Positions 26,265 through 38,848 of a stretch of DNA of 48,191 nucleotides are shown here, piece by piece. The notes beneath the pieces are model-generated. The model made no database searches. It was not told the origin of the DNA and saw nothing but the letters and a program-made list of their open reading frames with translations. Numbering within the stretch: position 1 is the stretch's first letter; each line of letters begins with the position of its first letter. The DNA comes from Blautia glucerasea (GTDB lineage: Bacteria > Bacillota > Clostridia > Lachnospirales > Lachnospiraceae), in NCBI RefSeq assembly GCF_013304385.1, contig NZ_JAAITU010000036.1, forward strand, positions 1 through 48,191, read 5' to 3'. The position numbers and the translations under genes are program-made.

Positions 26265-26350
26265 TCTTTACTCTTTTTTTACTATTTATTTGCGTTTGAT
26301 TAGGATTTATCCGATATGATAACAGCAGATAAGAAAAGGAGATGAAAGCA

Positions 26351-27268
26351 TTGAGTGAATTGTTATTAAGTACAAATGGATTGACGAAGCAGTATGGTCA
26401 TCATAAGGCAGTGGATAAAGTAAACCTTCACATAAAAAAGGGTGCTATCTATGGATTTATCGGACGGAACGGTGCGGGAAAGACGACTTGCCTGAAGATG
26501 ATCAGTGGACTTGCAAGACCGACAGCCGGAGAGATTGAGATGTTCGGGTGTAAAGGAAAAGAACTGGAGAGGATTCGTTCTCGTGTGGGGTGTCTGATTG
26601 AAGCACCGGGGCTGTATGGCAACATGAATGCATATACAAACCTGAAAATAAAATGTGAATTGTTTGGTATTCGGAAAAAGGGATACATCGAAGATATCTT
26701 AGAGACGGTCGGACTGGAAGGTGTCGGAAAGAAAAAAACGAAACATTTTTCCCTTGGAATGAAGCAGCGTCTCGGAATCGGGCTGGCACTGGTCGGGGAG
26801 CCGGATCTCCTGGTCCTTGATGAACCGATCAATGGGCTTGATCCCCAGGGAATTGCAGAGGTGCGTGATACCATACAGAGACTGCGAGATGAACGGAATA
26901 TGACGATTTTGATATCCAGTCATATTTTAGAGGAATTATCTAAGATTGCAACGGATTATGGAATTATCCATAATGGAAGTCTTCTGCAGGAGCTGACAAG
27001 CGAAGAACTGATGAAACGCTGCAGTGAACGGATTGAAATAGAGTTAATCCATCCGGAGCAGGCAGTCCCGATTCTGGACAGAATGGGATTTACCAACTAT
27101 CAGGTTACAGATAAGAGCCATATCCATATATTTGAACGATTGAATGAAAGCGCCAATGTCAATATGGAACTGGCAAAAGCAGGAATTTTGGTCAATGGAA
27201 TTTCCATTACCAGTGAAGAACTGGAAACCTATTTCTTGAATCTGACAGGAGGGAATCAAAATGCTTAA
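26351..27268 (+). CDS. BcrA-type ABC transporter ATP-binding protein
   Basis: This 305-residue subunit has Walker A GRNGAGKTT (Lys44), signature FSLGMKQRLG, Walker B LLVLDEPINGLDPQG and H-loop SSHILEE. A C-terminal extension of about 95 residues, seen in BcrA and lantibiotic-immunity ATPases, follows. TTG 26351 is preferred because AGGAG ends at 26341, where ATG 26342 would directly abut it. The gene overlaps the permease start by eight bases. With that permease it likely removes antimicrobial peptides from the membrane (inference). Confidence 0.85.
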   Translation: MSELLLSTNGLTKQYGHHKAVDKVNLHIKKGAIYGFIGRNGAGKTTCLKMISGLARPTAGEIEMFGCKGKELERIRSRVGCLIEAPGLYGNMNAYTNLKIKCELFGIRKKGYIEDILETVGLEGVGKKKTKHFSLGMKQRLGIGLALVGEPDLLVLDEPINGLDPQGIAEVRDTIQRLRDERNMTILISSHILEELSKIATDYGIIHNGSLLQELTSEELMKRCSERIEIELIHPEQAVPILDRMGFTNYQVTDKSHIHIFERLNESANVNMELAKAGILVNGISITSEELETYFLNLTGGNQNA

Positions 27269-28112
27269 TATGATAAAAATGGATCTGTACCGGATGGTCC
27301 GGACAAAAAGTATGTATGTGGTATGGATTGTGATGGCGGCAGCTATATTCTTCTCCACATCCATGTCGAAACTGGATATTGATACGATGAACAAGGAAGC
27401 GGAACAACAGCAGACAGAAAGCATTGCAGAAACAGTGAAACCAGAAACCATCAATATGGGAATGTCCGTATTCCTGCCGACACAGCCGGGAGAAAAAGTA
27501 ACGGTCTTTGATCAGGTATATGCAAACCTGCAGGCGAAGTTTGTGGCGTTGTTTCTGGTGATTTTTACAGTGCTGTTTTCCAGTGCAGATATAGGAAGCG
27601 GTTATATTAAAAATATCGGCGGGCAGGTAAGGAGCCGGAGAAACCTGATCTTTTCCAAAGCTTCCGTGTTGTTTGTGTATACGACTGTTACCATGCTGCT
27701 TTATTTCATCATTCAGATTATTGCACAGCAGATGTACTTCGGATATCTGGAGTGGGGGAATGGAAGCGAGTTGCTGAGATACTTTGGTATTCAGATTTTG
27801 CTTCATTATGCACTGGTACTAATCAGTATGGCGATTGCGGTGGTTTTGAACAGCAACGTGTTCAGCATGACGATTGTTATCTGCCTGTGCATGAATACCA
27901 TGATTGTCTTATACGGAGTGATCAATCATTTGATCCAGAAGGCAGGTGTGGAGAATTTCCAGATTTTGAAATATACAGTGACAGGAAAGATTGCACTTTT
28001 ATCCATGTCACCGACCAATAAGGAATGCCTGACGGCAGTTGTGATTGCGGCGGCGTTCGGAATCGTGGTTACATTACTGACAGCATGGGTATTCAGAAAG
28101 AGAGATATCTAA
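27261..28112 (+). CDS. ABC transporter permease (lantibiotic/bacitracin type)
   Basis: This 283-residue protein starts MLNMIKMDLYRMVRTKSMY, the usual opening of these permeases. It has a first membrane segment at about 17-33, a roughly 60-residue external loop, then five membrane segments to residue 275. It ends RKRDI and is followed without a gap by the kinase ATG. The overlap with the ATPase gene indicates a single transporter. Substrate class is inferred from operon layout, not from the sequence itself. Confidence 0.8.
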   Translation: MLNMIKMDLYRMVRTKSMYVVWIVMAAAIFFSTSMSKLDIDTMNKEAEQQQTESIAETVKPETINMGMSVFLPTQPGEKVTVFDQVYANLQAKFVALFLVIFTVLFSSADIGSGYIKNIGGQVRSRRNLIFSKASVLFVYTTVTMLLYFIIQIIAQQMYFGYLEWGNGSELLRYFGIQILLHYALVLISMAIAVVLNSNVFSMTIVICLCMNTMIVLYGVINHLIQKAGVENFQILKYTVTGKIALLSMSPTNKECLTAVVIAAAFGIVVTLLTAWVFRKRDI

Positions 28113-29009
28113 ATGATAAAACTAGGGTTCGTGCTATTGATAGCAGTGATACTGGTACAAGGAATGTTATTTTGGAAATACCAGCGGCAGGTGAAAGACA
28201 TCTGCCGCCAGTTGTCGTTTCTGATGAAGCACGACAGCAACATGCTGATTACCAGAGAAATGGATTTTGGAGGCATTGGTGAGTTGGCAGATGTTTTAAA
28301 CGAATGGCTGGAACTGAAGCGAAGGGAAAAGAAGGAATACTTGAAGAAAGAGGAGATGATTTCGGATACATATACAAATCTCTCACATGATATCCGTACT
28401 CCTTTGACATCCCTTGACGGATATTTTCAGTTAATGGAAACCTGTGAAGACCAGGAAGAGCAGATACGGTATATGAAGATCATACAGGAGAGAATCGGCA
28501 GCCTGAAAGAAATGCTGGAAGAATTATTTACTTTTACAAAACTTAAAAACGATTCTTTTCATCTGGAAATGTCATCCTGCTGTATCAACAAGATTTTGAA
28601 AGATACCATATTTTCCTACTACGATGAATGGACGGGCAGAGGAATTGAACCGGAGATACAGATTACAGATAAACTGCTGTTTATGAACGGAAATGAACAG
28701 GGAATCCAGAGAATTTTTCAGAATATCATAAAAAACGGACTGGATCACGGGGAGAAGAAAATCAGTATTTCACTGGAAGAAGTTGAAAACAACATCCGGA
28801 TACAGATAAAAAATCAAGTATGTCATGTGGAAAAAATAAATGTAGATCAGGTGTTTGAACGGTTTTATAAAGCGGATGAAGCACGCAGTAAGACTTCCAG
28901 CGGTCTCGGCTTATCAATTGCGAAAGAGCTGGTACTTCGTATGGATGGGAAAATCAGCGCCCGGATAGAAGGGAATGAGTTCTGTGTGGAGATTGTGTTT
29001 CCAAAATAA
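28113..29009 (+). CDS. Sensor histidine kinase
   Basis: This 298-residue kinase has one membrane segment (about 3-22) and no sizeable extracellular domain. The DHp H-box is NLSHDIRTPL with His92. The ATPase domain has N-box IIKNGLDHG and G2 TSSGLGLSIAKEL; the G1 segment is weakly conserved (QIKNQVCHVEKI). This small architecture is typical of kinases that sense through a partner ABC transporter. It probably phosphorylates the regulator at 25575-26264. The stop-start junction with the permease has no gap. Confidence 0.87.
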   Translation: MIKLGFVLLIAVILVQGMLFWKYQRQVKDICRQLSFLMKHDSNMLITREMDFGGIGELADVLNEWLELKRREKKEYLKKEEMISDTYTNLSHDIRTPLTSLDGYFQLMETCEDQEEQIRYMKIIQERIGSLKEMLEELFTFTKLKNDSFHLEMSSCCINKILKDTIFSYYDEWTGRGIEPEIQITDKLLFMNGNEQGIQRIFQNIIKNGLDHGEKKISISLEEVENNIRIQIKNQVCHVEKINVDQVFERFYKADEARSKTSSGLGLSIAKELVLRMDGKISARIEGNEFCVEIVFPK

Positions 29010-29424: not shown

Positions 29425-29757
29425 ATGGACAGCTTACAGAGGAAAGGCATCAATTTTGACCTGAATACACAAGCACTAAAGGAATATTATCCGAAAGGTG
29501 ACTGGCATAATGCATATGCGGATGTAAGGGACTTTTTTGAAGCAAACGGATTTGAGCATATTCAGGGATCGGGATATCATTCGGTGGAAGCAATGTCAGA
29601 AGCAAAAGCCATGGCAGTTATTTATCAGATGACAAAAGAATTTCCATGGCTCAATTATTGTGTGAATGTGTGTACCATATCAGATGTACCGGAACTGTTT
29701 GATATCTCGCATGTATTTGCCAGAGAAGCGGAACGGTTGGAAAAGAAAAATGCATGA
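29425..29757 (+). CDS. vapD: VapD-family endoribonuclease-like protein
   Basis: This 110-residue protein matches VapD/Cas2-like ferredoxin folds. It has GINFDLNTQALKEYYP near the N-terminus, an AYADVRDFFEANGFEHIQGS segment (split: AYADVRDFFEANGF and HIQGSGYHS) and a C-terminal FPWLNYCVN. VapD proteins of Haemophilus and Helicobacter are ribonucleases linked to persistence, often with an antitoxin partner. The ATG has an AGGAAC site overlapping the end of the upstream partner gene. Family assignment is good; activity is not proven here. Confidence 0.78.
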   Translation: MDSLQRKGINFDLNTQALKEYYPKGDWHNAYADVRDFFEANGFEHIQGSGYHSVEAMSEAKAMAVIYQMTKEFPWLNYCVNVCTISDVPELFDISHVFAREAERLEKKNA

Positions 29758-29758
29758 T

Positions 29759-29787
29759 TTGACAAATTATTTCCAATATGTTATATT
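29759..29787 (+). promoter_or_regulatory. Strong sigma-70 promoter for the YccF/EcsC operon
   Basis: TTGACA (29759-29764), a 17-bp spacer and TATATT (29782-29787). It begins immediately after the vapD stop, and transcription would start close to the 5' end of the riboswitch-like leader. Confidence 0.8.
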
Positions 29788-29796
29788 CATCTCAAG

Positions 29797-29927
29797 CAAA
29801 AAAGGGAGTAGCTGAACGCCTTGAAAGAGGTGGTTTTGTAACCGACAACCGGTATCGAGAGATACCCGTAGCAAATGAGATAGCAAGACTTTTATTGTGG
29901 CAGAGGTCATGATAGGAGTCTTTTTTT
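29797..29927 (+). ncRNA. Probable yybP-ykoY (Mn2+) riboswitch with terminator
   Basis: The leader has the two conserved loops of the yybP-ykoY motif: GGGAGTAGC at 29804-29812 and GCAAGACTTTTA at 29883-29894. P1 forms between CAAAAAAG (29797-29804) and CTTTTATTG (29889-29897). A P3-like hairpin GGTATC-GAGA-GATACC lies at about 29861-29876. The 3' aptamer strand AAGACT (29885-29890) can instead pair with AGTCTT (29917-29922), followed by a T7 run, giving an intrinsic terminator exclusive with P1. This is the classic ON-switch arrangement. Assignment is from memory of the consensus. Confidence 0.7.
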
Positions 29928-29986
29928 ATTATGAAATATAGAAAATCTGCCGCAATAGTCTGCTAAAAAGAAAGAGAGGATAAACG

Positions 29987-30421
29987 ATGAGTAACGAAAT
30001 GATGAAACGGGAAATGCAGGAAGCAGTACAGGCAGGGGAGCGGGCGCTTCAGAGCCTTTACGCAGCAAGGGATAAGTTGGGAAGTGCGAGAAACTGGGGC
30101 ATTTTTGATATGCTTGGAGGAGGCTTTATCAGTGACTTTGTGAAGCATTCTAAAATGAATGACGCAGCTGCGTTGATGGAACAGGCGAAAAGCGATATTC
30201 AGCGTTTTCAGAGAGAATTAAGAGATGTGCAGGTTTCCTTGGATCTGCGCATGGAAATCGGCAGCTTCCTTTCCTTTGCGGATTTCTTTCTGGACGGGCT
30301 GGTGGCAGATTATATGGTGCAGAGCAAGATTGCAGATGCAAGAGAACAGGTGGATGATGCCATCAACCGGATAGAAAAGATACTTGCTGATGTGAAAAAT
30401 CGGATGAATGGGGAGGTGTAG
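29987..30421 (+). CDS. Hypothetical coiled-coil protein in the riboswitch operon
   Basis: This 144-residue protein has long helices at about 1-35 and 60-140 with heptad-like patterning (AALMEQAKSDIQRFQRELRDV, cited as its core AKSDIQRFQREL). A central hydrophobic stretch rich in Gly/Phe (GIFDMLGGGFISDF) lies between them, and FLSFADFFLDGLVADY is near residue 90. I do not recognise a named family. AAGAGAGG lies before ATG 29987. It is three bases from yccF, so it is probably part of the same metal-responsive operon. Confidence 0.65.
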   Translation: MSNEMMKREMQEAVQAGERALQSLYAARDKLGSARNWGIFDMLGGGFISDFVKHSKMNDAAALMEQAKSDIQRFQRELRDVQVSLDLRMEIGSFLSFADFFLDGLVADYMVQSKIADAREQVDDAINRIEKILADVKNRMNGEV

Positions 30422-30424
30422 CAT

Positions 30425-30784
30425 ATGGGATGCCTGGGAAATGTGTTGTGGTTTGTGTTTGGCGGCGCAGTCAGTGGGCTGAGCTGGTGTCTGGCAGGTT
30501 GTCTCTGGTGTATTACCGTTGTGGGGATTCCGGTGGGGATGCAGTGTTTTAAATTTGCGGCGCTTAGTTTTTTCCCCTTTGGAAAAGAGGTGCAGTATGG
30601 TGGCGGAGCTGGTTCGTTCCTTTTGAATATCATCTGGCTGATTGTATCCGGTCTGCCTCTTGCACTGGAGCATCTGGCGTTGGGTACAGCTTTATGTGTG
30701 ACGATTATCGGAATCCCGTTTGGTTTACAGCAGTTTAAACTGGCGAAACTGGCATTGATGCCGTTTGGTGCGGAGGTGTATTAA
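30425..30784 (+). CDS. YccF-domain membrane protein
   Basis: This 119-residue inner-membrane protein has two YccF (DUF307) repeats, each a hydrophobic helix followed by the motif: NVLWFVFGG...TVVGIPVGMQCFKFA, and SGLPLALEHLALG...TIIGIPFGLQQFKLA. FPFGKEV and MPFGAEV end the repeats. Its role is not established in any organism I can cite. It stands between a coiled-coil gene and an EcsC-family gene, with an AGGTGTA site in the preceding coding end. Confidence 0.85.
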   Translation: MGCLGNVLWFVFGGAVSGLSWCLAGCLWCITVVGIPVGMQCFKFAALSFFPFGKEVQYGGGAGSFLLNIIWLIVSGLPLALEHLALGTALCVTIIGIPFGLQQFKLAKLALMPFGAEVY

Positions 30785-30785
30785 G

Positions 30786-31622
30786 ATGCGATTATTTGAT
30801 AAAAGGACACCGCTTCAGAAGGAGTGGGAAAAGCTGGAAGTACAGGAGCAGAGATTCCTTCAGAAGCGTTCAGAGAAAAGGGAGAGCATTCTGAATCAGA
30901 AACTGGAGGAAAAGATACCGCCGAAACTTCAGAAAACATTGGATACCGCTTTTGCGAAGGCATTTGCTCTGATTTTCGAGAAAGGAACCGGGGTTATTGA
31001 AAAGACGTATCAGCGGACAAAACTGGAGCAGGATTATCAGGTGCGGCAGTATATGGCGGATGTAAAGCAGAATTCCAAATCCCTCCGCTCTTTTTCTAAA
31101 AAGGCAAGAGATACGGGAACAAAGAATTTACTGCTATCCGGTGTGTCTGGAATCGGGATGGGCGTATTGGGAATCGGTCTGCCGGATATTCCGGTATTTA
31201 CAGGGATGATTTTAAAGAATATTTATGAGACTGCTCTGCAGTATGGATACAGCTATGAAAGCAGGGAAGAAAAATATTTTATCTTATTATTGATCCGGGG
31301 AGCAGTATCCTATGGGGATACACTTTGTGAGATTGACGGGAAAGTAAATGAATTTATCAGAAACGGAATACTGCCGGAAGAGTATCAGGATAAGGAGCAG
31401 ATCGAACAAACGGCGGGCGCTTTGTCAAAAGAGCTTCTGTATATGAAGTTCTTACAGGGAATTCCGGTGGTTGGTGCTGTAGGCGGAGCTTATGATGCAG
31501 TCTACATGAAACGGATCACAGAGTATGCAGAGCTGAAATACTGGCACAGGTATCTGGCGGGGCGGAAAAAGGCAGAGAATGGACAATTATGTAAAAGGTG
31601 TAAAAGTTATAGAGATATATGA
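30786..31622 (+). CDS. EcsC family protein
   Basis: This 278-residue protein is of the EcsC family, with a charged N-terminal helical region (1-60). A central segment rich in Gly (GVSGIGMGVLGIGLPDIPVF) matches the family core, and YGYSYESREEKYFILLLI and LQGIPVVGAVGGAYDAVYM follow. ATG 30786 follows GGAGGTG. The reading frame runs into an adjoining gene: the last 15 residues (ENGQLCKRCKSYRDI) overlap 31579-31911 and do not look like a natural EcsC end, so the original terminus may have been replaced. Confidence 0.78.
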   Translation: MRLFDKRTPLQKEWEKLEVQEQRFLQKRSEKRESILNQKLEEKIPPKLQKTLDTAFAKAFALIFEKGTGVIEKTYQRTKLEQDYQVRQYMADVKQNSKSLRSFSKKARDTGTKNLLLSGVSGIGMGVLGIGLPDIPVFTGMILKNIYETALQYGYSYESREEKYFILLLIRGAVSYGDTLCEIDGKVNEFIRNGILPEEYQDKEQIEQTAGALSKELLYMKFLQGIPVVGAVGGAYDAVYMKRITEYAELKYWHRYLAGRKKAENGQLCKRCKSYRDI

Positions 31623-31911
31623 TGCCGCAAATAAGGAATTGCTGGTAAAGTATGATGATAAGCATAATATAGACAAGGTTATTTCTGCTTTAAATATAAA
31701 ATCATGGAAAGAGACAGAAAAAAGCATAGGTATGAACCCTAAATATACCATAAAATTTTATTGCGATACTACGAACCAAGATGAAGAAAAAGATATAAAA
31801 GAAATTACCCTTTATGAAAATGGGGAATATGCTACGATTTTTATTACTTCTCCTGGCGGAGTAAAACAAAACTATAAAACGAGCATTGATATTTCTGAAT
31901 TGGTTATCTAA
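31579..31911 (+). CDS. Hypothetical small protein, AT-rich
   Basis: This 110-residue protein is predicted beta-rich (IEIYDAANKELLVKYDD, then YTIKFYCDTTNQDEEKD, then ITLYENGEYATIFITS), acidic and soluble, in the size range of immunity proteins. No family is recognised. It overlaps the 3' end of the EcsC gene by 44 bases and is visibly AT-richer than its neighbours. The start ATG lacks a good ribosome binding site. It may be a late arrival that displaced the end of ecsC. Confidence 0.5.
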   Translation: MDNYVKGVKVIEIYDAANKELLVKYDDKHNIDKVISALNIKSWKETEKSIGMNPKYTIKFYCDTTNQDEEKDIKEITLYENGEYATIFITSPGGVKQNYKTSIDISELVI

Positions 31912-35215: not shown

Positions 35216-38200
35216 TTACTGATGTTTCTTTTTGCGTTTGAAGTAAACGATGCCCAGGACACTTGCACCTGCAAGTGCAGCTATGGCGATTCCGGCATAC
35301 AGGAGAAGCGGCGTCTCATCGCCGGTCTTTACAGGCGGAGCTACCGGAGGCGTCTCCGGTTCTTTCGGAAGCTCCGTCATGTGTACGGTCTGACCTTCAT
35401 CCTTCAGATCCTCATGGGAAGCAATCTCATGCTCGGTTTTTCCGTCTGTATAGTAGAGCTTTTCAAAGACAACCACATCCTGTCCGGCAAGAGCAGAAGC
35501 GTCGAAGGTAAAGGTAACTTCCACAGAGCCGCCAGCTTTTTCTGCTTTAAATTCTGCCTGAGCGGTAACTGGTTTTCCGTCTTTTAACAAAGCCTCTCCG
35601 GTTTCCTTATTCATCAGGGTTCCGATGACTTTGTACTCAGATCCAGGCATCAGACCATGATAAGTGACCGTATCTACGATAGTCGCTTCCTTGGAAGCAG
35701 AGACATCCTGATCCCCGTCACTGCCGTCTTTGGCTGTGGTTTTGATTTCCGGGAAGTAGATGGTCTGGTTGGCATCTTTGATGTCCGCATGTACCGCTAC
35801 TTCGTGATCTTCAAAAGTCATTGTTTCAAATGCCACGAGCGTTTTTCCGGAAAGTGCAGAGGCATCAAAGGTAAAGGAAAGCTCTACGCTGCCGTTAGCT
35901 TCTTCCGGAGTGAAACTTGTTTCTGCAGTCACAGCTTTGCCATCCACATCGAAAGGTTTTTCGGTTTCCGCATCCATGAGTGTTCCTGTCAGCTTGTACT
36001 CTTTGCCTGGGATCAGGTTTTTGTATTCCACAAGGTCTGTAAGCGTCAGTTCTTTTTCCGGTTTTGCATAGTGTGTGCCGGAAGCAGCATCTGTTGCAGT
36101 GGTTTTGATTTCCGGGAAGTAAATAGTCTGTCCTTCATCCGCAATGTCTGTGTGTACGGCAACTTCCTTGTCTTTGTAAGCCAGGGATTCAAAGACAACT
36201 ACTGTTTTCCCTTTTAAGGAGCTGGCATCAAAGGTAAAGGTAACATCTACCGTACCAGCGGATTCTTTTGGCTTGAAGGATGCTTTTGCTGTCACCGGTT
36301 TTCCGTCTGCTTCGACTGGTTTCTTTGTTTCTTTATCTATCAGAGTTCCAGTCACTTCATATTTCTGGTTAGGAACCAGCCCCTTAAAGGAAACCGTATC
36401 CACCAGCGTGATTTCTTCCTTTGCACAGGAAATATTGGAGTTCGTGTCCGCATCTTTCGCAGTAGTCTTGATTTCCGGGAAATAGATGGTCTGGTCTTCA
36501 TCGTTGATGTCGGTATGGACTGCAAGCTGCATCTCATCCTGATATAATTCCTCGAAGACAACGGTTGTTTTTCCCTTTAAGGAAGTTGCATCAAAGGTAA
36601 AGGTTACTTTGACGGAGCCGGAGGATTTCTTTGCAGTAAATTCAGTTTCAGAAATCACCGGTTTTTCATCCACAAGGATTGGTTCCCCGGTTTTTTTATC
36701 CATTAAGGTTCCAGTCAGTTTGTATTTCTGGCCCTTTTTCAGTCCTTCGTATTCCACAACGTCTTCAATGGCCACTTCTTTTGCCGGCTGGCTCATGTGT
36801 GTACCGGTCTCGGCATCCAGAGCAGTCGTGCCGATCTCAATGGCATCATCGGTCAGAGTTCCAACCTGTATCAGAACAGAATCCTTATAAACCTTGACTT
36901 CAAAGGTTAAAAGATCCATGCCTTTGTTGGAATCACAACGCTGTTCCGCCAGAGTGTAAGTATCGTAAATGAGAGCGCCTTTGGAATCATCCGGTTTGGA
37001 GGTGCCGAACCAGATGCCGTCTTCCGAAGACTCACCCCGGTTGGTATTTGCGGTATGTTTGTTCCATTTGGAGGAAGTGCTGGCATAACCGTTGGCATCT
37101 GTCACAATCACATGGCTTTCGCCTGTTGTTTTGGAAGTGATCTTAAATGGCACATTTGCCAGACGGTTCTGGCTGCCGTCAGCAATCTTGACAAATTCCA
37201 GATCCCCGCGGATGACCTGATTGGAGATGGAATTGTCTTTTGCAGTCAGTTCCACGATTTTTCCCTGTTCTGTGATGTCAAATTCTACAGAGATCTTTCC
37301 GCTGTTCAGATAACCGGAAGGTGCAGTTGTTTCATCCACACGGTAATGTCCGAATGGGAGAGCATCTTTTGCAGTTGCAGCAGAACCGGATTTATCGGCA
37401 GTAAGTGTAAGGACAACCTGATCTTTCGTGTAGGATGTTCCGTCTACTAATACCGGATTTTCATTTAACGTAGTGATCGCAAAGACAGTACCTTCCAAAG
37501 TGGCAGAACCCTGCGGTTTTGCTTCTCCGGTCTCGCTGTCACGTTTCTGGATCTTCACTCCGCCACGGATGACAGATTCTTCTATGGTAGAAGACTGGTA
37601 TACCGAAACCATTTCCTGCTTACCGTCACCTGTAATTTTCTGTACGAAGACAGTTGGATTGAGCTGGTATCCGGCAGGGGCTTTGCTTTCCTGTACCGTT
37701 ATGGTACCGAGCGGAAGACAGACGGTCTTGCCATCACTGGTATAGTAAAAGGCATCGCCGCTTACAAAGGAATCTTTGGTAAAATGCATCTTTCCGGAAA
37801 CATCTGTTTTTAATACCCAGGTACGTGCCGGTTTCTTTCCAGCTTCCGCAGGATCACTGTCAGACTGCTCGGTATAGAACTTGACTGTAAATTCTGCGTT
37901 TGCAAGGGAAGCTGCTCCCTGTGGGGAGGCTTTCTTTGTTTCGGCATCCAGCTTTTCAAGCACCAGATTCATGGGATTATTCTGCGGAATATCTGTTACG
38001 TTTGCAGCAGAAGTCTGTTCTGCTTTTACGGTGACTTTGTGAGCTTTGGTGTCTACAATGTAGCCTTTGGAAGCAGAGAGCTCTTTTATGGTATAATCGC
38101 CTTCCTCCAGTTCGCCGGATCTGGCATACCCGTTTTCATCAGTGGTCAGTTTCTGGATGAGCTTCTCACCCTGATAGATCCCATACACAGCACCCTTTAA

Positions 38201-38848
38201 GCTGTAATTCGGATTCCCGTCCGATACGCTTCCGTTGGCAGAAGATTTTTTCAGTTCGATCCAGCCGTTTGGAACCTGATACCAGCTTCCGGCAATGGTC
38301 TGGCTGCCCTGTCCCGGAACGATGAATGCCCGGAAGCCTTCCGGCGGGTTCGGAAGTCCCTGAATGGCACTGGCTACTTCCAGTGCTTTATCAATATAGG
38401 ACTGCGGGGCGCCATGGAAAGCTCCGGTGTCAGCGGAATTACCGGCATAGATGTAAGCGACAACCAGATGTCCGATGACATAGCTGTTATCATCACTCCA
38501 GCCACTGAAATATTTATCCTTGACGACTTTATCGTAGCCGTAACCGCCGTTTAAGTAGTAGAGCGCTTTTCTGAGCGGGGAGTTCTGGCTTAAAAGGTCA
38601 TAGGAATAGGAACCAGAGGAAGGTGTTTTCTTCAGTGGTTCCACGCAGTAGGCAGTATTGCTCCCGTCAAAGCTCATGCGGGAGGTAAAATAGCTGCCGT
38701 AAGGGATATTGGCACCTGCCTTATAGCTGATGGTGCCGTCGGCTGCATGAACCGGAAAACTGCCGGAAAACAATGCGCCGACTGCGACAAGGACTGCCAG
38801 CAGCATAGCCAGCGTCCGTCTGGTATAGGATTTGTATGTCTGTAACAT
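35216..38848 (-). CDS. VaFE/Cna-B repeat surface-anchored adhesin
   Basis: This 1210-residue secreted protein has a signal peptide (about 10-35, LAMLLAVLVAVGALFSG). A thioester-like domain follows with NTAYCVE (Cys68). Several Cna-B/SpaA isopeptide-type domains (about 200-650, e.g. YTIKELSASKGYIVD) come next, then four tandem VaFE repeats of about 119 residues (about 680-1156; each with a VVFE/VAFE core and FPEIKTTA link). The C-terminus PPVKTGDETP, a hydrophobic helix and KRKKKHQ form a sortase-type signal, but with VKTGD instead of LPxTG. It sits in the transfer block right after virB4, so it probably promotes donor-recipient contact. Confidence 0.88.
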   Translation of the reverse strand: MLQTYKSYTRRTLAMLLAVLVAVGALFSGSFPVHAADGTISYKAGANIPYGSYFTSRMSFDGSNTAYCVEPLKKTPSSGSYSYDLLSQNSPLRKALYYLNGGYGYDKVVKDKYFSGWSDDNSYVIGHLVVAYIYAGNSADTGAFHGAPQSYIDKALEVASAIQGLPNPPEGFRAFIVPGQGSQTIAGSWYQVPNGWIELKKSSANGSVSDGNPNYSLKGAVYGIYQGEKLIQKLTTDENGYARSGELEEGDYTIKELSASKGYIVDTKAHKVTVKAEQTSAANVTDIPQNNPMNLVLEKLDAETKKASPQGAASLANAEFTVKFYTEQSDSDPAEAGKKPARTWVLKTDVSGKMHFTKDSFVSGDAFYYTSDGKTVCLPLGTITVQESKAPAGYQLNPTVFVQKITGDGKQEMVSVYQSSTIEESVIRGGVKIQKRDSETGEAKPQGSATLEGTVFAITTLNENPVLVDGTSYTKDQVVLTLTADKSGSAATAKDALPFGHYRVDETTAPSGYLNSGKISVEFDITEQGKIVELTAKDNSISNQVIRGDLEFVKIADGSQNRLANVPFKITSKTTGESHVIVTDANGYASTSSKWNKHTANTNRGESSEDGIWFGTSKPDDSKGALIYDTYTLAEQRCDSNKGMDLLTFEVKVYKDSVLIQVGTLTDDAIEIGTTALDAETGTHMSQPAKEVAIEDVVEYEGLKKGQKYKLTGTLMDKKTGEPILVDEKPVISETEFTAKKSSGSVKVTFTFDATSLKGKTTVVFEELYQDEMQLAVHTDINDEDQTIYFPEIKTTAKDADTNSNISCAKEEITLVDTVSFKGLVPNQKYEVTGTLIDKETKKPVEADGKPVTAKASFKPKESAGTVDVTFTFDASSLKGKTVVVFESLAYKDKEVAVHTDIADEGQTIYFPEIKTTATDAASGTHYAKPEKELTLTDLVEYKNLIPGKEYKLTGTLMDAETEKPFDVDGKAVTAETSFTPEEANGSVELSFTFDASALSGKTLVAFETMTFEDHEVAVHADIKDANQTIYFPEIKTTAKDGSDGDQDVSASKEATIVDTVTYHGLMPGSEYKVIGTLMNKETGEALLKDGKPVTAQAEFKAEKAGGSVEVTFTFDASALAGQDVVVFEKLYYTDGKTEHEIASHEDLKDEGQTVHMTELPKEPETPPVAPPVKTGDETPLLLYAGIAIAALAGASVLGIVYFKRKKKHQ
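35380..36808 (-). repeat. Four imperfect tandem repeats of about 355 bp in the adhesin gene
   Basis: The coding sequence repeats its VaFE unit four times, each unit ending in a near-identical stretch encoding TIYFPEIKTTA (e.g. around 35740, 36110, 36470; degenerate in the last copy). Repeat number could vary by recombination between copies. Confidence 0.7.

Follow-up and report, generated by a model that had tools for sequence, protein, structure and literature searches.

A probable divergent yybP-ykoY-type riboswitch leader upstream of a CC-YccF-EcsC operon in Blautia glucerasea

The stretch of DNA analysed here (hereafter the window, 48191 bases) belongs to Blautia glucerasea (contig NZ_JAAITU010000036.1). 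Between 29759 and 31622 it contains a promoter, a structured leader and an operon of three genes, encoding a helical protein (hereafter CC), a YccF-domain membrane protein and an EcsC-family protein. A preliminary description had assigned the leader to the yybP-ykoY (Mn2+) riboswitches. The present analysis leads to the conclusions that: (i) by descent and anatomy, as judged from sequence comparison, it is a riboswitch-type leader of the Mn2+ class, localized outside the curated family RF00080; (ii) it is probably a divergent yybP-ykoY-type riboswitch, built on a three-way junction, that works as an ON switch for the transcription of a membrane-maintenance operon. Homology, structure, covariation, promoter/terminator architecture and target gene classes were established computationally.

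The leader and its operon

The features of the locus are the following (alignments A1, A2 and A5 and covariance model R3 are described in the next section).

29759-29787, plus strand: sigma-A type promoter TTGACA-17-TATATT, 11/12 consensus matches
29795-29898, plus strand: candidate aptamer of divergent yybP-ykoY type, three-way junction without P4 (R3 match; covariation in A1, A2 and A5)
29798-29804, plus strand: 5' strand of the switch helix P1.1, pairing with 29889-29895
29804-29812, plus strand: GGGAGUAGC, i.e., top pair of P1.1, 5' side of the metal loop L1 and start of P1
29817-29832, plus strand: P2 hairpin (paired fold; 3 of the 4 pairs of helix 3 changed on both sides in A1)
29835-29875, plus strand: P3/P3.1 arm bearing L3 (covariation and paired fold)
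29845-29850, plus strand: L3 bulge ACAACC, 6 nucleotides (inspection against the solved structures)
29883-29895, plus strand: GCAAGACUUUUAU, i.e., 3' side of P1, L1 and P1.1, contributing also to the 5' terminator arm
29885-29930, plus strand: intrinsic terminator, 17-pair stem (29885-29922) followed by a T run, mutually exclusive with P1.1/L1
29987-30421, plus strand: CC, 144 amino acids, four helices predicted, no Pfam or NCBIfam match
30425-30784, plus strand: YccF-domain membrane protein (PF03733, NF008740)
30786-31622, plus strand: EcsC-family protein (PF12787)

The promoter, the two conserved loops, P1 and the T-run hairpin using the 3' aptamer strand all lie where the preliminary description had placed them, with GGGAGTAGC at 29804-29812 and GCAAGACTTTTA at 29883-29894. 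Its YccF and EcsC assignments were confirmed, while the first protein of the operon is without Pfam match. The promoter (TTGACA at 29759-29764, TATATT at 29782-29787, 17-base spacer) is located directly 3' of the stop codon of a vapD-like gene. Two promoter-like sites, the second on the minus strand, occur in 301 bases, versus a mean of 0.8 in shuffled sequences. The transcript would start near 29794.

Both strands of L1 are recognizable: GGGAGUAG at 29804-29811 and (C)RAGAC, as CAAGAC, at 29884-29889. By inspection, adenosine 29807 appears to be the counterpart of A10 (numbering of PMC6754395). In the Lactococcus lactis structure, Mn2+ is reported to be held by phosphates and by the N7 of A41 in the L3 UCAAUUC, and in that of Xanthomonas oryzae by A48 in the L3 ACAUACU (PMC6754395; PMC9190785). 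Since the window has, in this order, a CG clamp, ACAACC and P3.1, adenosine 29847 is, on sequence grounds, the equivalent of these Mn-binding adenosines. P4 is absent: the structure has no helix between P3 and the 3' strand of P1, and requires none.

The 5' arm of the terminator reuses the 3' strands of L1 and P1.1; this overlap of terminator and aptamer fits an ON switch. The region 29785-29935 folds at −43.1 kcal/mol versus −31.0 (standard deviation 3.4) for shuffled sequences, none of 200 being as low. Together with the conservation and covariation described below, this places the leader beyond chance.

Concerning the proteins, the AlphaFold model of CC has four helices (mean pLDDT 80.4); Foldseek found no PDB match to it better than E 0.15, i.e., no fold-based function. 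A search for a defence function with PADLOC gave weak matches only for the operon proteins (JetC, 0.0046; PDC-S29, 0.00028). An open reading frame of 110 amino acids (31579-31911), overlapping the end of the EcsC gene, has no match in the protein-family or PADLOC scans.

Relatives of the leader and their target genes

A DNA search with the leader gave matches in 35 of 145 relatives, part of them by chance. Alignment A1 contains 18 complete leaders out of the 30 loci obtained by this search; not included were eight chance matches and four relatives (L017, L020, L030, L031) that were incomplete or odd. With a structure drawn after the known yybP-ykoY class, 95.0% of the A1 cells are paired and 15 of 28 pairs changed on both sides (0/500 shuffles as high); paired cells fall to 37-45% when the structure is slid. 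The covariance model R1, built from A1, detects at E<=0.01 matches in 48/64 Blautia genomes and 139/397 Lachnospiraceae genomes, the weakest at about 30 bits and not every one inspected.

The census of 140 loci comprises the best-scoring R1 places in genus and family, L015 and 80 further listed places; it is not a random sample, and nine RF00080-derived loci were kept apart from it. Alignment A2 (100 matches, 95 distinct) has 95.7% of cells paired and 23/28 pairs changed on both sides; in 16 sequences the first pair of P1 is A-U instead of G-C. Model R2 was built from A2, i.e., from 100 census loci, of which 15 were scanned with RF00080, none matching. R2 was then applied to 27 loci: the best 21 RF00080 loci out of 29 retrieved (the eight weakest were omitted) and six stretches flanking mobile elements. 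It gave 20 matches, all at RF00080 places (20/21 loci) and none elsewhere, with E from 1e-8 to 0.26 (14 at <=0.01). R2 matches were found in 24/398 genomes of the phylum and 81/295 genomes of the order.

A third alignment, A5, contains 76 aptamers, each preceding a cation-transporter gene (the Na+-pump subunit OadB being counted as one). It has 93.7% of cells paired and 26/28 pairs changed on both sides. The training set of model R3, built from A5, contains neither the window sequence nor any CC, YccF, HflK or flotillin leader. The sole R3 match at E<=10 in the 48191 bases of the window is 29795-29898, over the full model length (66.6 bits, E 2.3e-13). R3 also detects all 30 other leaders tried, taken from 87 without ATPase, exchanger or OadB target.

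The motifs GGGAGTA[GA] and RAGAC are each present in 140/140 census loci; this universality is weaker evidence, because R1 favours these motifs. The NCA core of L3 is found in 137/140. A terminator overlapping the aptamer, a region that lies outside the covariance model, occurs in 139/140 census leaders (the exception being L207), versus 192/2175 background AGAC sites.

The targets of the census leaders (n=140, classified by clustering) are P-type ATPase, the commonest (45), CC (41), SPFH (21), flotillin (10), YccF (6), Na/Ca exchanger (4), OadB (4) and others (9). The CC and YccF genes thus account for 47/140 loci, four of which are copies of the mobile element carried by the window. YccF is the next gene after CC in 32/41 CC cases. 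EcsC is the third gene in 7/41, again with four element copies; this is an undercount, because the sequence of many loci stops 1500 bases downstream. Relatives of EcsC are found in 13/64 Blautia genomes, which makes it an occasional partner of the module. A pattern scan found 97 loci, of which 80 were named: CC+YccF (27), flotillin (15), CC (12), YccF (6), CC+YccF+EcsC (3), too short (9) and none (8). CC/YccF targets are thus found at 48/80 named loci, class shares that are biased by a pattern drawn from CC- and flotillin-type leaders. The CC alignment was made of 32 of 41 relatives plus the window; L263 was dropped (internal stop), as well as eight near-duplicate or incomplete sequences.

Among the census representatives examined, the ATPase has the PMR1/SERCA types (scores under their cut-offs) and Listeria LMCA1 as its closest counterparts. 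At L187 the SPFH pair consists of HflK and HflC; L153 has a FloT-like flotillin, again scoring under the cut-off, and L176 an OadB of TIGR01109. The RNAs found by R1 and R2 precede MntP, TerC, GDT1, PMR1/SERCA-like ATPases and Na/Ca exchangers. Phylum-wide, a first gene was obtained for 23/25 inspected R2 loci: P-type ATPase, Na/Ca exchanger, OadB, TerC, MntP, CitMHS or LemA. Order-wide, transporters, SPFH and flotillin were obtained at the 26 inspected loci; SPFH and flotillin targets also occur there in a second family. The source genome has a second member of the branch, upstream of OadB. It must be noticed that genes adjoining R1/R2 matches at L347, L376, L131, L354 and L228 encode LemA, LURP-one/scramblase-like and penicillin-binding proteins and CitMHS/ArsB-type transporters.

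Three points are inferred: which ligand is bound, in which direction expression responds and what the operon does. In the absence of ligand, the 3' strand of L1/P1.1 (GACUUUUAU) would fold into the 17-bp terminator and transcription would stop near 29930. In Mn2+ excess, L1 (GGAGUA/AAGA) and L3 (ACAACC, with adenosine 29847) would dock around the metal; this docking would stabilize P1.1, the terminator would not form and CC, YccF and EcsC would be expressed. That Mn2+ excess should switch the operon on is proposed by analogy with L. lactis, where Mn2+ is reported to stabilize P1.1 and to block termination (PMC11087558). Rather than exporting metal, the operon would most likely protect or maintain membrane proteins during metal overload, together with the HflK/HflC and flotillin genes controlled by sister switches. 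The target list would make sense if the regulon tied quality control of membrane proteins to metal overload; what CC, YccF and EcsC contribute to it is conjectural. The preliminary description had left a choice between a role in metal or membrane stress and a captured switch; the former fits better, as sister leaders precede HflK/HflC and flotillin, and capture is disfavoured by the recurrence of the pairing.

If this reading is correct: (i) many Mn2+-type riboswitches in a major gut family escape the standard Rfam model; (ii) the class governs more than metal efflux, i.e., also membrane proteolysis (HflK/HflC), membrane scaffolding (flotillin) and the CC-YccF(-EcsC) module; (iii) metal overload is a first testable cue for this module. 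It would also accord with Bacillus subtilis, where the TerC Mn exporters, one of them controlled by an Mn riboswitch, are reported to co-purify and to work with FtsH and flotillins, FtsH becoming essential without TerC proteins (PMC10550928). HflK is named as a modulator of FtsH. No paper was found in the literature search that joins yybP-ykoY with EcsC or Lachnospiraceae, YccF with EcsC, or an Mn riboswitch with HflK; HflK, flotillin and YccF targets are not claimed to be unreported.

Points against the assignment and alternative explanations

Several results weigh against a yybP-ykoY-type riboswitch controlling this operon. RF00080 (cut-off 45 bits) has no match in the window at the cut-off, and a scan of 351 bases with permissive filters gave none at E<=10 either. 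One of the seven P1.1 pairs is not standard (A-A mismatch, 29799/29894). R2, which was used to fit the R3 alignment, had the window sequence among its training sequences. The free fold prefers the terminator state by 13.5 kcal/mol (−39.1 versus −25.6 with the aptamer enforced), as expected for an ON switch requiring its ligand; a plain terminator would show the same. L3 has 6 nucleotides in the window and in 39/47 CC/YccF leaders, one below both solved structures. Three leaders of the CC class (L204, L205, L206) have UCU instead of UCA, with U at the Mn-contacting A. CC-like genes also occur without the leader: R1 matches lie beside CC in just 12/22 genomes of the same genus having CC (in a 13th, CC and the R1 match are both at contig ends), and another contig of the source genome carries a second CC copy, which lacks the leader.

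The source genome likewise has no RF00080 match at the leader position; the leader is thus not filed as an RF00080 member. The preliminary description had predicted such a match and had named the lack of a significant score as refutation; taken literally, this lack is what was found. The RF00080 score is too narrow a test for the class, and the non-match is kept as evidence without being decisive, because all 17 scanned branch loci (one being that of the window) are missed at E<=1 while 3/3 control loci are detected at 19-23 bits in the same scan. Seven of these 17 loci precede cation pumps or exchangers. More widely, RF00080 reaches its cut-off in 0/145 relatives (30 of which match more weakly, at E<=1) and in 2/14 control genomes, and matches 7/20 phylum-wide R2 loci at E<=1, all under the cut-off. 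Support for the class assignment comes from the homology to transporter-linked aptamers, the Mn-contact adenosine and the L1 motifs, not from the RF00080 score.

The alternative that survives best, though unlikely, is the same fold with another ligand: the short-L3 CC/YccF branch would have drifted away from Mn2+, either towards another divalent ion (e.g., Ca2+) or towards responding to metals more broadly. Ligand changes are known among variants of other riboswitch classes. L3 length does vary with the target: 6 nucleotides in 33/41 CC and 6/6 YccF leaders, 7 or 8 in 44/45 ATPase, 4/4 exchanger and 4/4 OadB leaders, i.e., 39/47 versus 1/53 with 6 nucleotides (Fisher p 1.2e-18, inflated by common descent). 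The only 6-nucleotide ATPase leader is L182, of UCAACAU type, where the alignment is doubtful. The three leaders with U at the Mn-contact position and the pneumococcal mgtA aptamer, reported to bind Ca2+ besides Mn2+ (PMC9495176, citing Martin et al. 2019), point in the same direction. However, adenosine 29847 and the L1 motifs are retained, and the separation between length and target class is not clean, a 7-nucleotide L3 being found in 8/41 CC, 19/21 SPFH and 9/10 flotillin leaders.

As L3 sits in the metal pocket, a changed metal response of the short-L3 leaders is possible. A broader joint proposal, rather unlikely to hold in both its parts, is that the large uncatalogued Mn2+ riboswitch branch forms a membrane alarm regulon of gut Lachnospiraceae (HflK/HflC, flotillin and CC-YccF-EcsC beside metal pumps), and that the CC/YccF sub-branch was retuned by a one-base deletion in L3, so that its metal or its threshold is no longer that of the pump switches in the same cell. 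The 6-nucleotide L3 and A-to-U leaders are in any case natural variants for asking what determines metal selectivity.

An ordinary attenuator, i.e., a conserved terminator governed by a protein or by transcription pausing with no metal involved, would account for the strong default terminator and for a free fold independent of the aptamer. It leaves the covariation of the three-way junction and the homology to transporter-linked aptamers unexplained, and is very improbable.

The mobile element announced by the preliminary description was confirmed by near-identical copies in other genera. Positions 70-48141 of the window are 99.97% identical in one genome of another genus (G309), and large parts are 97-99.99% identical in two further genera (G220 and G350); in these two, identity breaks around 10.6, 15.3 and 31.6-32.1 kb. 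No match was obtained in the plasmid collection; in the phage collection there were three, all short (9-13% of the query covered). The presence of a TraG-like ATPase, a lysozyme-like protein and a thioester/TQ adhesin suggests an integrative conjugative element. Capture of the switch by this element, functionally unlinked to the operon, is the least probable explanation: the 48-kb copy in another genus and the leaderless CC-like genes would agree with it, but chance capture is made unlikely by a leader-operon pairing that recurs across the family, with diverged sequences and different genes following, in the proportions of the census and of the named loci given above.

The neighbouring genes of the window include the following.

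29425-29757: vapD-like gene (NF041506 at 99.4 bits, cut-off 100)
26342-29009: lantibiotic-protection-like ABC transporter and VanS-like histidine kinase, both under curated cut-offs
35216-38848: surface protein of 1210 amino acids borne by the element, with thioester domain, SpaA folds and T-Q ester bond domains

Comparison with known systems

The leader shares with the yybP-ykoY riboswitches of L. lactis (4Y1I) and X. oryzae (6N2V) the L1 motif GGGAGUAG with AAGA, the NCA core of L3 with its putative metal-contacting adenosine, the P3/P3.1 arm and a P1.1 shared with the terminator. It differs from them by the three-way junction without P4, an L3 of 6 nucleotides instead of the 7 reported for both structures (PMC6754395), an AU-rich P1.1, the lack of RF00080 match and a target operon that is not an exporter. 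The leader thus falls outside the crystallised four-way-junction subtype, characterized by P4 and a 7-nucleotide L3.

The three-way junction itself is not new, since the pneumococcal mgtA aptamer is so described (PMC9495176). The leader resembles this Streptococcus Mn2+/Ca2+ riboswitch by its junction, and P-type ATPase is the commonest target of the census. It differs from it, and from the Rfam family RF02617 («SSRC10, Streptococcus sRNA 10»), by a score of 13.5 bits in the window (cut-off 56), i.e., outside that family, and by its CC/YccF/EcsC targets. The rli62, SSRC10 and snoRNA matches within the leader were set aside, their scores being far below the cut-offs. It must be noticed that RF02617 matches overlap R1/R2 aptamers at L353 (1505-1610), L355, L341, L356, L081 and L112. 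These lie upstream of P-type ATPase (L353, L355, L341), MntP (L081) and flotillin (L112); the score is 67.8 bits in L353, above the cut-off, and below it at the other loci. What is catalogued as the small RNA SSRC10 is probably an Mn2+ riboswitch with a three-way junction, and possibly the same element as the Streptococcus mgtA riboswitch.

A third comparison is with RF00080-scoring aptamers of the same genus, eight of which precede OadB (L063-L066, L069, L071, L072, L074). All are detected by R2 (E 0.027-0.26 for six, 0.0075 for two) and all score below the RF00080 cut-off. They differ from the window by an L3 read as UCAACAU or UCAACAG by inspection and by the start GGGGAGUAG. OadB is thus under RF00080-scoring aptamers in some species and under the window branch in others (L176, L168, L161, L120). 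The OadB proteins, compared between four loci of each type, are 71-74% identical, which suggests that both versions of the aptamer do the same job.

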